From the NCBI GenBank assembly GCA_035454605.1, contig DATIGQ010000144.1, positions 1 to 34,190 of the forward strand: DNA of 34,190 nucleotides, in the 5' to 3' direction. Both the position numbers and the translations under genes were made by a program. Below are positions 26,736 to 32,239 of this stretch, piece by piece. Position 1 is the stretch's first letter; each line of letters opens with the position of its first letter. The DNA comes from Terriglobales bacterium (GTDB lineage: Bacteria; Acidobacteriota; Terriglobia; Terriglobales; Acidobacteriaceae). The notes beneath the pieces are model-generated. The model worked only from the letters and a program-made list of their open reading frames with translations, searched no databases and was not told the DNA's origin.

Positions 26736-29573
26736 TTATCCGGTCCCCGTCGAGCGCAGACTCTCCTCCACCGGCGGGACACAGCGCTCGCAAAGGGTAG
26801 GATAGTCGGAACTGCTACCGACCTCGGTGGAGTAATTCCAGCACCGATCGCACTTGTGCCCGTCGGCGCGGCGCACCTCGACAGTGAGCGGGGCGGAGCC
26901 GTTCTCCGCAAGCGCGGGAACCAGGGTCACGGCGGAAGTGATGAAAAGGGCGCGCAAGTCGTCGCGATAACGCTCCAGCACGGGATGGACACTTTCGGGA
27001 GCGGAGAGTTGCACATGCGCTTCCAGGCTGCTGCCGATGGTCTTGGCGTTGCGCGCACTCTCCAGGGCCTTGAGCACTTCCTGGCGTACAGCCAGCAGCG
27101 TTTCCCAGTCGGCGCGGAAGGCCTCGAATCCGGCGGTGGTGTCGGTCCCGGTGATCTCCTGGGCAGCAGGGAAGAGCGCCAGGTGGGCGCTCTGGGGCCG
27201 GTTCTCCAGCTTGGGGAGGTACTGCCAGATCTCGTCGGCGGTGAAGCTCATCACGGGAGCGAGCAGGCGGACGAGCGCTTCACCGATGCGCCAGATGGCG
27301 GTCTGCGCGGAACGGCGCGCCATGGAATTAGGCGCGAAGGTGTAGAGCCGGTCCTTCAGCACGTCGAAGTAAAAGGCGCTGAGGTCGACGATGCAGAAAT
27401 CGTGCATCTGGTGATAGGCGCGGTGAAACACCATCTCGTGGTACCAGCGGCGGACACTCTCGGCGAGGTCGGAGGTGCGCAGCAGCAGGTAGCGGTCAAT
27501 GGCTTCCATTTCCGCGAAAGGAACGGCGTGACTCGCCGGATCGAAGCCGTTCAGGTTCCCCAGGACGAAGCGAAACGTATTGCGGATCTTGCGGTAGCTT
27601 TCGGCCACGCGCTGCATGAGCTCTTCGGAGCCCCGCACGTCCTCGCGGAAATCCACCGAGGCCACCCACAGGCGGACGATCTCGCCGCCCAGACGGTCGG
27701 CGATGTCCACCGGATCGACGACGTTGCCCAAGGACTTGGACATGGCGCGACCCTGCGGGTCGAGCGTCCAGCCGTGCGTGGCCACGCTGCGATACGGGGC
27801 CTGGAGGCGGGTGCCGACGGCGCAGAGCAGGGAGGAATGAAACCATCCGCGGTACTGGTCGCCGGCTTCGACGTAGAGGTCGGCCGGCCAGGGCAAGCCC
27901 TCTTCGCGGTCCAGCACGGCCGCCTGGCTGCATCCGGACTCGAACCAGACGTCGATGATGTCGCTTTCCTTGCGGAAGTCCGTGCCCTTGCAGTTCGGGC
28001 ACACGGTTCCTTTGGGAAGAATTCCTGTGGCTGGATGCCGATACCAGGCGTCCACTCCTTCCCGCGCCACCAGCTCGACGACCGCCTGGTTTGCCTCGAC
28101 TGAGCGCAGGAGTTCCTGGCAGCCTGTGCAGAAGAAAACAGCAATGGGCACACCCCAGACGCGCTGGCGCGAAATACACCAGTCCGGCCGGGTGGCAACC
28201 ATGTTGGCGATGCGTTCCTCACCCCAGGCCGGATCCCACTTGACCTTCTTGATCTCGTCGAGCGCCCGCTGGCGAAGCGTGCTTCCCTCCAGTTGCGCCT
28301 CCATGGATATGAACCACTGCACGGTGGCGCGGAAGATGACCGGGTTGTGGCAACGCCAGCAGTGCGGATATGAGTGCTCGAGCTTCTCTGTAGCCAGCAG
28401 CGCCCCTTTCGCGCGCAGCAGGTCGACGATGTGCGGGTTGGCGTTAAAGACCGTCTTGCCTTCGTACTCAGGCAGGCCGTTGCGCAGGATGCCGGCCTCA
28501 TCCACGTTACAGGTCTGGTCGAGTTTGTACTTCTGCCCGGTGTAGAAGTCGTCGGCACCGTGGGAAGGCGCCGTATGGACGGCGCCCGTGCCCTGATCGG
28601 TAGTGACGTACTCTGCGAGCACGCCGAGAACGCTGCGCTCGAGGAATGGGTGGGCAAAGGTCGCGTGCTCGAGTTTCACGCCGTCGAAACGGGCGAGGAC
28701 ACGCGCATCCTTGAGGCTGCATTTCTCCATGGTGGCCGTGGCAAGCACATCGGCGACGACGTAAACCTCGCCAGAGGCCTCGATGGCCGCATATTTCAGG
28801 TAAGGGTGGAACGCCACCGCCATGGATGCGGGAATGGTCCATGGAGTGGTGGTCCAGATGATGGTCGAGACTTTCTTGCCTGTCAGCGCGGGATCCAACT
28901 TCGCCGGATCGCTGGTGAGGGCGTACTTCACCCAGATGCTGGGGTCGGTACGGTTCTCGTACTCGACTTCAGCCTCCGCCAGCGCGGTCTTGTCGTGCAG
29001 GCACCAGTAGACGGGCCGCAGCCCGCGGTACACCGCGCCGCGTTCGAGAAAATCGAAAAAGGTACGCAGGACAACCGACTCGTACTCCGGCGTCATGGTG
29101 GAGTAGGGGCGGTCGAAGCGCCCCAGAACCCCGATGCGCTGGAACTGACTGCGCTGAAGGTCCAGGTACTTCTGGGCGTAGGCCGCGCAGGCGGCGCGGA
29201 CTTCCAGCGGAGACATCTGCAGCTTGCGCCGGCCAAGGTCGTTGTCCACCTTGATCTCGATGGGCAGGCCGTGGCAGTCCCAACCCGGAACGTAGGGCGC
29301 ATCCAGGCCGGCCATATTGCGGGTCTTGACCACAAAATCCTTCAAGGTCTTGTTCAGCGCAGTGCCCAGGTGGATGGGCCCGTTGGCGTAGGGAGGACCG
29401 TCGTGCAACACATAGACAGGCGCGCCCTTGCGGGCCTGGCGGATGCGGTCGTAGAGCCGCATTTCCTGCCATCTCTGGAGCATCTGGGGCTCCTTCTGGG
29501 GCAGGTTGGCCTTCATGGAGAAGTCCGTCTTCATCAGGTTGAGGGTGGACTTCAGGTCGAGGGGCGCTGCCAT
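26736..29573 (-). CDS. ileS: Isoleucyl-tRNA synthetase
   Basis: Charges tRNA-Ile and edits mischarged valine. It has 945 residues, the normal bacterial length. LHDGPPYANGPIHLGTA holds the HIGH motif (His68-Leu-Gly), followed by LDAPYVPGWDCHGLPIE. The editing domain has TTPWTIPAS and GTGAVHTAPSHGADD. AMSKSLGN carries the KMSKS loop near residue 611. The C-terminus has a CDRC...CERC zinc knuckle. The frame is open far upstream, but the promoter (TATAAT at 29599-29604) rules out earlier starts: the nearby MKF Met overlaps the -10. I chose the ATG at 29573, with GGAG a few bases upstream. It is co-transcribed with lspA. Confidence 0.96.
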   Translation of the reverse strand: MAAPLDLKSTLNLMKTDFSMKANLPQKEPQMLQRWQEMRLYDRIRQARKGAPVYVLHDGPPYANGPIHLGTALNKTLKDFVVKTRNMAGLDAPYVPGWDCHGLPIEIKVDNDLGRRKLQMSPLEVRAACAAYAQKYLDLQRSQFQRIGVLGRFDRPYSTMTPEYESVVLRTFFDFLERGAVYRGLRPVYWCLHDKTALAEAEVEYENRTDPSIWVKYALTSDPAKLDPALTGKKVSTIIWTTTPWTIPASMAVAFHPYLKYAAIEASGEVYVVADVLATATMEKCSLKDARVLARFDGVKLEHATFAHPFLERSVLGVLAEYVTTDQGTGAVHTAPSHGADDFYTGQKYKLDQTCNVDEAGILRNGLPEYEGKTVFNANPHIVDLLRAKGALLATEKLEHSYPHCWRCHNPVIFRATVQWFISMEAQLEGSTLRQRALDEIKKVKWDPAWGEERIANMVATRPDWCISRQRVWGVPIAVFFCTGCQELLRSVEANQAVVELVAREGVDAWYRHPATGILPKGTVCPNCKGTDFRKESDIIDVWFESGCSQAAVLDREEGLPWPADLYVEAGDQYRGWFHSSLLCAVGTRLQAPYRSVATHGWTLDPQGRAMSKSLGNVVDPVDIADRLGGEIVRLWVASVDFREDVRGSEELMQRVAESYRKIRNTFRFVLGNLNGFDPASHAVPFAEMEAIDRYLLLRTSDLAESVRRWYHEMVFHRAYHQMHDFCIVDLSAFYFDVLKDRLYTFAPNSMARRSAQTAIWRIGEALVRLLAPVMSFTADEIWQYLPKLENRPQSAHLALFPAAQEITGTDTTAGFEAFRADWETLLAVRQEVLKALESARNAKTIGSSLEAHVQLSAPESVHPVLERYRDDLRALFITSAVTLVPALAENGSAPLTVEVRRADGHKCDRCWNYSTEVGSSSDYPTLCERCVPPVEESLRSTGTG

Positions 29574-29598
29574 GCGGGCTCCGGCGATTCCGAATTTC

Positions 29599-29627
29599 AT
29601 TATAGGGAGAGGTTTCGGGGCCGTCCA
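29599..29627 (-). promoter_or_regulatory. Promoter of ileS-lspA
   Basis: On the minus strand TGGACG (29622-29627), a 17-base spacer and TATAAT (29599-29604). The transcript would start near 29592, about 18 bases before the ATG. It lies in the 192-base gap shared with the divergent tonB gene; no T-box-like leader fits in so short a space. Confidence 0.7.
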
Positions 29628-29765: not shown

Positions 29766-30995
29766 ATGAACGAAACCGAATCTCGCGGAAGCAAACAGGG
29801 CGCCAGCAGCCATCTGAACGCTTTGCTGGTGGAGCTGCGCGAGCCATGGTGGCAGAGCCTGGGCCACAACCTTGACGACCTGTTCTTTCCGCAGAAGCTC
29901 CCTCCCTTGAAGCTGACGTCGCGGCCGGTCCCGGTAGAACAACTGGAGATCGATCAGCCGTTGTGGCGCTCCCTGGCTGACGGCCTGCGGCAGTTGTTCG
30001 TCCGCGAAAAGCAGTCGCCGCTGCAACTTACTTCGCGGCCGGTGGCAGTGAAGTCGCTGGCGGAGATCGAGCGGCCCTGGTGGCATTCGTTGGCCTCGAA
30101 CCTGCACGACCTGCTCTTTCCCGAGAAGCTTCCTCCGCTACAGCTCACCTCGAAGCCGGTAGCGGTACGGGACATCTGGGGCGACTACAACTATCGAAAG
30201 CGCGGCCTGGCGGGAACCCTTTTGGTACATGCTGCGCTGCTGGCCGGCCTGGGCGCCGTCTCCTTCCTGGGGGCGAAAATGGCGAGGGAAGGGCAGCCGC
30301 ATGCGACCGTGTCGCTGGTGTCGCCGGATGTCTCCGTGTATCTGCCGCTTTCGGCCAAGGCCAATGACACGATCGGCGGCGGCGGTGGCGGTGGCGATCG
30401 CGACAAACTGCAGGCTCCGAAAGGCAAGCTCCCCAAGGCTTCCATGCAACAGTTCACGCCCCCGGCAGTGGTCGTCCGGAATGAGGACCCCAAGCTTCCG
30501 ATGGAGCCCACGGTGGTGGTACCTCCGGAGGTTCCCCTGCCCTCGGTCAATCTGCCGAATTACGGCGACCCGCTGGCGAAGGTGGCGGGGACGCTCTCAA
30601 ACGGCACCGGCTCGGGGGGCGGAATCGGATCCGGTTCAGGCGGCGGTATCGGTTCGGGCGACGGCCCCGGATTCGGTCCGGGGAGCGGCGGCGGGACCGG
30701 CGGCGGCGTATTTCAGGTTGGCGGAGGTGTTTCCGCTCCGCGACCCCTTTATACGCCGGACCCGGAATACTCCGAGGAGGCACGCAAGGCAAAGCACCAG
30801 GGAACCGTGGTGCTCTGGCTGGTGGTGGGGCCGGATGGCCGCGCCCACGAGGTGCGCATCCGGCGCAGCCTGGGATTAGGCCTGGACGAGCGCGCCATCG
30901 CTGCCGTGAGCCAGTGGAAGTTTGAACCTGCGCGCAAGAACGGCGTGCCCGTCGCGGTACGCATCAACGTCGAAGTAGACTTCAAACTGTACTGA
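29766..30995 (+). CDS. TonB-family energy transducer with triplicated N-terminal motif
   Basis: A 409-residue TonB-like protein. Residues 26-137 are three gapless 35-residue repeats (26-60, 64-98, 103-137), each of the form PWWxSLxxNLxDLfFPEKLPPLxLTSxPVxV. One membrane helix follows (about 148-171). Next are a glycine/proline-rich periplasmic spacer (GSGGGIGSG repeats at ~275-320) and a C-terminal TonB domain: PDPEYSEEARKAKHQGTVVLWLVV, then AIAAVSQWKFEPARKNGVPVAVRINVEVDFKLY. It would couple the proton-motive force to outer-membrane transport. The repeats are cytoplasmic if orientation is normal. GAGAGG lies 11 bases before this ATG; a GTG one codon earlier is possible. No ExbB/ExbD genes are in the window. 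Confidence 0.9.
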   Translation: MNETESRGSKQGASSHLNALLVELREPWWQSLGHNLDDLFFPQKLPPLKLTSRPVPVEQLEIDQPLWRSLADGLRQLFVREKQSPLQLTSRPVAVKSLAEIERPWWHSLASNLHDLLFPEKLPPLQLTSKPVAVRDIWGDYNYRKRGLAGTLLVHAALLAGLGAVSFLGAKMAREGQPHATVSLVSPDVSVYLPLSAKANDTIGGGGGGGDRDKLQAPKGKLPKASMQQFTPPAVVVRNEDPKLPMEPTVVVPPEVPLPSVNLPNYGDPLAKVAGTLSNGTGSGGGIGSGSGGGIGSGDGPGFGPGSGGGTGGGVFQVGGGVSAPRPLYTPDPEYSEEARKAKHQGTVVLWLVVGPDGRAHEVRIRRSLGLGLDERAIAAVSQWKFEPARKNGVPVAVRINVEVDFKLY

Positions 30996-31078: not shown

Positions 31079-32239
31079 TTGAATGAAGAAGGGCAAGCCG
31101 TAGAAAGTACGGTCTCGCGCATCATTCGGCACGAGATCGTCCGGCTCCTGGTGCTCTCGATCCTGGGCACGGTCGCGTTTCTTGGTACCCGCGCGGCGGC
31201 GACGTGGAACCGGGATGTGCAGGCCCGGACCGCGGCGGTCTGGTATGAGCGGGGCCAGCGCGCCATGGCAGCGGGAGACCTCCAGGAGGCCATCGACTTT
31301 CTTCGCCGGGCGACCGCCACGGCACGTGACAATCCTGTCTACAGCCTTGCCCTGGCGGAGGCGCTAGCCTCGGCCCAGAAGGATGAGGAAGCTGACCAGA
31401 TCCTGCTCCGCTTGCGCGAACGCACACCGGAGAATCCCAAGATCAACCTGCAGCTTGCCAGGATCGCGGCCAAGCGGGGCAGTGTGGCAGAAGCGACCCG
31501 CTACTATCACAGCGCTCTGTACGGGGTTTGGCCGGGCGAAAGTGGAGACGAAGAGAGGCGGCAGGTACGGATCGAACTGACAAGATTCCTGCTCCAGCAC
31601 GGGGCGCGGGACCTCGCGCTTTCCGAGCTGCTGGCGTACAGCGGGGACTTGCCGCCCAGCGCCGCCGCCCAGATTCAAGCGGGAGAACTCTTCCTTGAAG
31701 CCGCGGATCCCGCGCAGGCGCTGGCGCACTTCACGAGCGCGTTAAAGCAGGAACGCGCCTCCGACCAGGCTTTTCTTGGGGCAGGGAAGGCCGAGTTTCA
31801 GTTGGGCGACTACGCCCATGCCCGAAGATACCTGGCATCTGTCAAGCAAGGTGCGCTGGTGGAGGAGGCCTCCGAGCTCCTGGCCGTCACGAATGTGGTG
31901 CTGGAGAATGACCCTGTAGCTTCCGGGATCGGAGCGCAAGAACGGCGACGCCGCCTGAGAGCCTGCCTGCAGGGCGTTTTGCAGCGCCTGCAGGAATGCC
32001 TTGCGCAGCCGCCGGGCGCAGATATCGTCGAGCTTCAGGCCCTGCTACAAGAAGCACAAGCTCTAGAACCCTCCCTCAAGTCCTGGCGGCGGCTTAAGGA
32101 TGAGGACGTGATCCCCACCGTGCTCGACCTCGTATATCGAACCGAACAGCAAAGCGATCGCATCTGCGGAACGCCTTCCAGCCTGGATCGCGGGCTGGCC
32201 CTGATTGCGGAAAACTACCTGCGCGAGCACCAGCCATGA
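31079..32239 (+). CDS. Membrane-anchored TPR protein
   Basis: A 386-residue protein with an N-terminal membrane helix (about 21-40, RLLVLSILGTVAFLGTRAAA) and TPR-type repeats: AVWYERGQRAMAAGDLQEAIDFLRRA, then PVYSLALAEALASAQKDEEADQIL, PKINLQLARIAAKRGSVAEATRYYHSAL and QAFLGAGKAEFQLGDYAHARRYL. It is probably a scaffold in the periplasm or at the membrane; no enzymatic motif is seen. The start is TTG at 31079, since no ATG fits this frame; a weak TCTAAT -10-like sequence lies at 31050. It overlaps the ClC channel gene by 4 bases (ATGA), so the two are translationally coupled. The 83-base gap after tonB holds a 12-base GC palindrome (31031-31042). Confidence 0.82.
   Translation: MNEEGQAVESTVSRIIRHEIVRLLVLSILGTVAFLGTRAAATWNRDVQARTAAVWYERGQRAMAAGDLQEAIDFLRRATATARDNPVYSLALAEALASAQKDEEADQILLRLRERTPENPKINLQLARIAAKRGSVAEATRYYHSALYGVWPGESGDEERRQVRIELTRFLLQHGARDLALSELLAYSGDLPPSAAAQIQAGELFLEAADPAQALAHFTSALKQERASDQAFLGAGKAEFQLGDYAHARRYLASVKQGALVEEASELLAVTNVVLENDPVASGIGAQERRRRLRACLQGVLQRLQECLAQPPGADIVELQALLQEAQALEPSLKSWRRLKDEDVIPTVLDLVYRTEQQSDRICGTPSSLDRGLALIAENYLREHQP

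Follow-up and report, generated by a model that had tools for sequence, protein, structure and literature searches.

What does a TonB protein do with some 140 residues on the cytoplasmic side of the inner membrane? The question is raised by a 34,190-nucleotide stretch from a Terriglobales bacterium (Acidobacteriota; assembly GCA_035454605.1, contig DATIGQ010000144.1, positions 1 to 34,190 of the forward strand; the window), in which a TonB-like protein encoded beside the isoleucyl-tRNA synthetase gene (ileS) carries three copies of a 35-residue module ahead of its membrane helix. The module recurs in TonB-like relatives across one bacterial class and in a second, tail-anchored membrane protein, and from sequence comparison and structure prediction we propose, at roughly even odds (probability about 0.5), that it would be a short repeated peptide, on the inner membrane's cytoplasmic face, to which a putative partner would dock. 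The parts of the TonB-like gene, in window coordinates, are the following.

29766..30995, + strand: TonB-like protein, 409 residues (open reading frame; Pfam TonB_C, 1.7e-21)
29814..29828, + strand: leader element LNALL, residues 17-21, ahead of copy 1 (by eye in alignments; LNLLL-like in relatives)
29841..29945, + strand: module copy 1, residues 26-60 (57.7 bits with the profile made without the window's genus)
29955..30059, + strand: module copy 2, residues 64-98 (43.7 bits, same profile)
30072..30176, + strand: module copy 3, residues 103-137, adjoining the membrane helix (64.7 bits, same profile)
30174..30188, + strand: IWGDY, residues 137-141, directly ahead of the membrane helix (IWG in 9 of 9 rows of alignment A3)
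30192..30287, + strand: predicted membrane helix, model residues 143-174 (AlphaFold2), carrying T151-x3-H155-x6-L162-x3-S166
30759..30989, + strand: TonB C-terminal domain, residues 332-408 (Pfam, profile matches)

The C-terminal domain scored 76.9 bits against PF03544 (cut-off, 24.6) and 53.8 bits against TIGR01352 (cut-off, 27.1), and the periplasmic linker is glycine/proline-rich. With this domain, one N-terminal helix of the SHLS type and such a linker, the protein resembles TonB transducers (PF03544/TIGR01352), from which it differs in the approximately 140 residues, with three modules, ahead of the membrane helix; little or no cytoplasmic domain, a usual feature of TonB and not a requirement, is a trait that it does not share. 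T151, H155, L162, and S166 stand at the positions of the SHLS motif of TonB and TolA, in a spacing that we take to be that of the motif. An SHLS-type histidine was present in 165 of 175 distinct proteins, that of the window included, and among these 165 there was S or T at −4 in 142, I or L at +7 in 151, and S or T at +11 in 107, counts that lean towards the motif, the histidine having been chosen so as to favour it. The motif is named in the available part of PMC12204202. As its residues are kept, the window protein still looks motor-coupled, and ExbB-type motor components are represented in its genome by two MotA_ExbB matches (neither on the window's contig), next to ten TonB_C matches. In the leader region, L14 and L17 (first-row numbering of alignment A6) were at least 90% conserved. 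The invariance of IWG in alignments A5 and A6 is by construction, the loci having been fetched with a pattern containing it, and IWG was absent from some relatives, e.g., L045, L047, L051, and L103.

An earlier reading of this DNA from its letters alone (the sequence-only reading) had described three copies of 35 residues at residues 26-60, 64-98, and 103-137, and these coordinates were reproduced: the copies align without gaps, with 22 of 35 residues identical between copies 1 and 3 and 19 of 35 between copies 2 and 3, as then counted, and 18 of 35 between copies 1 and 2. The best ungapped pair of 35-residue stretches within residues 1-145 scored 135 with 23 identities, against maxima of 40 and 12 in 2000 shuffles. 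Copy 2 is the most divergent of the three. The profile behind the bit scores listed above was built from 156 TonB units, and a second profile, from the tail-anchored family only (63 units), gave 44.2, 40.6, and 53.6 bits for copies 1 to 3, while the best score reached in 500 shufflings of residues 1-175 was 6.0 bits; profiles from outside the genus thus ruled out that copy 2 is a chance look-alike. Against single-copy relatives, copy 3 matched best (27 of 33 residues), followed by copy 1 (24) and copy 2 (19), and the best match of copy 2 overall (20 of 33) was a tail-anchored protein. By these sequence measures, the three stretches are copies of one homologous module.

The module is not confined to the window protein. 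Class and family are used here as the group codes of the search tool; whole-genome searches scored at most 19 candidates per genome (35-residue profile) or at most 12 (phylum sample, profile A6), and absences are accordingly not exhaustive. In the window's own genome, the module profile matched only the window protein, with its three copies, and one copy on contig C122, in a 526-residue frame cut by the contig end. Matches to the 140-residue N-terminal query (E ≤ 1) were found in 145 of 150 family genomes, and matches to A6, a 71-row profile of single-copy N-termini, membrane helix included (E ≤ 0.001), in 155 of 200 class genomes. Of the 396 genomes of the phylum sample, 44 matched A6 (42 of 44 in the family, 2 of 2 in group f2, and 0 of 1 in group f3). 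Both A6 counts cover the module, the stretch ahead of the helix and the helix; the helix region may account for part of a match, and it accounts for the whole of one listed phylum match (G006:C27), and the rows of A6 had been fetched with the pattern containing IWG. None of the 349 sampled genomes outside the class, a status read from the order of the listing, matched the module-plus-helix profile among the candidates scored, at most 12 per genome; with the 35-residue profile by itself, five genomes outside the class matched weakly (E, 0.004 to 0.01), which we took as chance. In a named collection, the best 80 of 186 relatives all bore titles of Acidobacteria lineages (Acidobacteriales, Terriglobales, Terriglobia, Bryobacteraceae, and the like). 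Single copies ahead of the helix in other acidobacterial TonB-like proteins, which the sequence-only reading had mentioned, were found in many. A viral source was set aside, no relative being found in viral contigs. No Pfam or NCBIfam model matched residues 1-140 of the window protein, and the one hit among solved structures, weak (E, 0.22) and covering part of the module profile, was set aside as a structural relative.

The copy number, which the sequence-only reading had said may vary, was assessed beside ileS, the divergent neighbour of the TonB-like gene in the window:

26736..29600, − strand: isoleucyl-tRNA synthetase (ileS), named by eye, start codon tentative

From the listed matches, one TonB per genome was fetched, which covered 120 of the 150 genomes of the family, and copies were counted at >8 bits with the profile, by which degenerate copies can be missed; there was one copy in 85, two in 29, three in 5, and four in 1. 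The fetched stretch contained ileS in 113 of the 120 (one copy in 79, two in 29, three in 5), with a gap of ≤848 bases in all 113 and with ileS upstream and divergent in 111. For the four-copy TonB of G013 (L086), a longer stretch showed a divergent ileS at a distance of 1454 bases upstream. The ileS-linked TonB of G382 (L294) had zero copies, a natural deletion, and the range in ileS-linked TonB thus runs from 0 to 4. On a quick tree of the 120 TonBs, made from the part after the last copy and lacking support for 41 of its 116 inner branches, the copy state changed at least 14 times. The window protein and that of its congener G025 grouped together with three copies amid one- and two-copy relatives, and other three-copy TonBs stood elsewhere on the tree (the pair G051 and G106, and G118). 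These changes, with three-copy forms in separate places, count for docking. We think it very unlikely that the extra copies are neutral tandem duplications that drift while only the membrane-proximal copy works: one copy does suffice in the 85 single-copy genomes, but upstream units (n = 42) keep the same core as membrane-proximal ones (S in 100%, W in 95%, the three PPL residues in 60 to 93%, S in 93%), and between the window and G025, copy 2 is still identical at 26 of 33 residues, a count equalled by copy 1 (26) and not reached by copy 3 (23). The core kept in upstream copies also counts for docking. A TonB in a metagenome-assembled genome titled Bryobacterales (L161:3818-5239, + strand; 474-residue frame) had three degenerate copies at wider, uneven spacing.

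The module was also found in an undescribed protein of approximately 245 residues, of which three copies make up most of the length and which ends in an apparent C-terminal membrane anchor:

L066-L085, e.g., L066:4354-5061, + strand: tail-anchored family, three copies, apparent anchor

These 20 loci were picked for short frames from the matches to the N-terminal query, and all had frames of 229 to 314 residues without a match to the window's TonB domain; each frame encodes exactly three copies, a stretch that contains arginine and, at the C-terminus, a hydrophobic one (by eye). Three copies were carried by 21 of 21 distinct tail-anchored proteins. A profile of 85 single-copy TonB units alone detected the tail-anchored copies. 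At E ≤ 3.6e-83, the protein was present in 35 of 150 family genomes (in one with an in-frame stop), with one further fragment at a contig end, and it was absent from the window's own genome in the same search. Pfam gave no match in 5 of 5 tail-anchored proteins tested, and NCBIfam gave nothing above cut-off in 2 of 2. The presence of the module in two families of different architecture counts for docking, and its place in a second membrane protein hints at an inner-membrane partner. The tail-anchored protein was present in 28 of 85 genomes with a single-copy TonB and in 3 of 35 with a multi-copy TonB; these raw counts look suggestive of a trade-off between the two, but the idea was dropped, as only 4 independent pairs stand on supported branches and they do not decide it. 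A third architecture was seen in L002, L089, and L093, one cluster of long proteins; in L002 and L089, one divergent copy is followed by FWPDVFVS and a hydrophobic stretch, and L089 (L089:1003-2721, + strand) has one module copy and a TonB domain at its end. The truncated C122 frame of the window's own genome clusters with L089.

Each module consists of a helix with the pattern W-x-S-L-x-x-N-L-R-D, followed by an extended F-P-x-K-L-P-P-L-x-L-T-S-x-P-V stretch. AlphaFold2, run on the window N-terminus (45 rows) and on a single-copy relative (71 rows), predicted a 13-residue helix and then an extended segment, followed by a short helix (at IWG or ahead of it) and the membrane helix, without a compact fold (predicted template modelling scores of 0.30 and 0.36, respectively), as expected for linear motifs; the membrane-proximal copy had a block predicted local distance difference test score (pLDDT) of 81 to 92. 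Over 225 units, conservation averaged 3.08 bits per position at positions 16-29, the PPLxLTSxP part, versus 2.25 at positions 1-15, and peaked at the P, P, L, L, T, S, and P of PPLxLTSxP (2.9 to 4.0 bits). This peak favours docking, since membrane lying alone does not demand it. The sequence-only reading had offered, as one option, an amphipathic belt lying on the membrane. In the form considered here, the helices would be embedded in the inner membrane's inner leaflet, with the proline-rich part as spacer and the copy number tuning the hold on the membrane. We regard this as possible though doubtful. The helix is amphipathic (mean hydrophobic moment over 225 units, 0.57; a median of 2% of shuffles as high), with conserved W, L, and F, and the module precedes a predicted or apparent membrane helix in the sequences examined. 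However, the mean net charge of the helix is only +0.2, the moments of window copies 1 and 3 (0.46 and 0.44) were reached by 9% and 7% of shuffles (2% for copy 2), and the spacer, S and T included, would be the better-conserved part.

Docking to the motor itself, in which the module would make contact with an ExbB/TolQ-type motor in its cytoplasmic part and set motor choice or complex stability, is unlikely in our judgement. The module directly precedes the helix with SHLS-type residues, and the ten TonB_C matches of the genome need sorting between its two MotA_ExbB matches. Against this stand the TonB of the exbB-exbD cluster on contig C85 (exbD named by eye), which has a short, unrelated N-terminus without the module, and a close paralogue on contig C56, without the module and 58% identical over a 273-column alignment from residue 138 on; the ileS-linked TonB of G382 likewise persists without it, and the C-terminal stretch of the tail-anchored proteins lacks a conserved SHLS-type histidine (by eye). 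Because the C85 TonB and the C56 paralogue lack the module, TonB motor coupling does not in general require it, and the idea of a general ExbB docking site is weakened; the module marks one orphan transducer whose helix keeps the SHLS-type positions. Before the membrane helix, the module-free paralogues L278 (contig C56 of the same genome), L288, L289, and L290 have, by eye, an LPTLFGxGY-like element.

Of the conserved docking module that the sequence-only reading had suggested, the module thus stood, conserved, cytoplasmic by position, best conserved in PPLxLTSxP, and reused in a second protein, and docking to ExbB/ExbD became disfavoured. In the docking that we propose, the copies would bind a cytosolic or inner-membrane partner via the PPLxLTSxP segment, the module helix would pack on the partner or on the membrane, extra copies would add avidity or further sites, and the tail-anchored protein would present sites of this kind while having no periplasmic arm. 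Several observations weigh against this proposal. No partner protein was identified. The W and L conserved in the module helix are also compatible with membrane contact, and the extended parts of window copies 1 and 2 had block pLDDT values of only 50 to 60. The module is missing from the C56 paralogue and from the ileS-linked TonB of G382. No neighbour gene was common to most of the 20 tail-anchored loci, the widest shared cluster occurring in 5 of 20, and gene neighbourhood was dropped as a clue. Finally, in the tail-anchored proteins each of copies 1 to 3 has its own pattern of conservation (copy 2 has E for the T of LTS in 86% of 21), a finding more in line with distinct sites than with equal ones, which makes the avidity step less secure. 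A wider version of docking, in which one shared partner would bind both the orphan ileS-linked TonB and the tail-anchored protein, and the module would be the cytosolic handle by which a class-specific machine couples some cytosolic activity to the transmission of force towards the outer membrane, or lets it gate that transmission, and in which copy number would serve as an evolutionary dial, is quite unlikely.

TonB N-termini are normally short, as the sequence-only reading had said, and the available part of PMC8262864 describes TonB proteins in general as lacking a cytoplasmic domain. The same part gives SjdR of Anabaena as a TonB-like exception with a cytosolic N-terminal part of approximately 65 residues, to which the window protein is likened by description. 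TonB1a of Teredinibacter turnerae has an N-terminal extension of unknown function (available part of PMC10734418, which cites Chu et al. 2007 for a class of N-extended TonBs); it is similar to the window protein in having such an extension, but it comes from a shipworm symbiont, not an acidobacterium, and the description available does not mention repeats. HasB of Serratia, like the window protein, is a specialised TonB paralogue, and in the HasB/ExbB system an N-terminal extension has a functional role (PMC9008036, in part); unlike the module, that extension is on ExbB and periplasmic. The module is not described in the parts available of PMC9008036, PMC11658791, PMC6434023, and PMC12204202. 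Nothing on it appeared among the papers listed from one open-access library, which cannot prove it unpublished. No described TonB system is known to us in which repeated docking peptides exert control from the cytoplasmic end. Descriptions of TonBs have them almost bare on their cytoplasmic side, and here a conserved, countable module is found there across one class of soil bacteria; 0 to 4 copies at the same gene place, together with reuse in a second membrane protein, make a natural deletion and copy-number series, and the module is a clear bait for finding a putative inner-membrane partner.

On its other side, the TonB-like gene is followed by genes for a tetratricopeptide repeat (TPR) protein and a ClC-type channel. 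The TPR protein (window 31079-32239, + strand), close behind the TonB gene, has an N-terminal hydrophobic stretch; sequences similar to it were present in 7 fetched loci from 5 genomes, but the fetched DNA of the congener G025 (L094) contained none.
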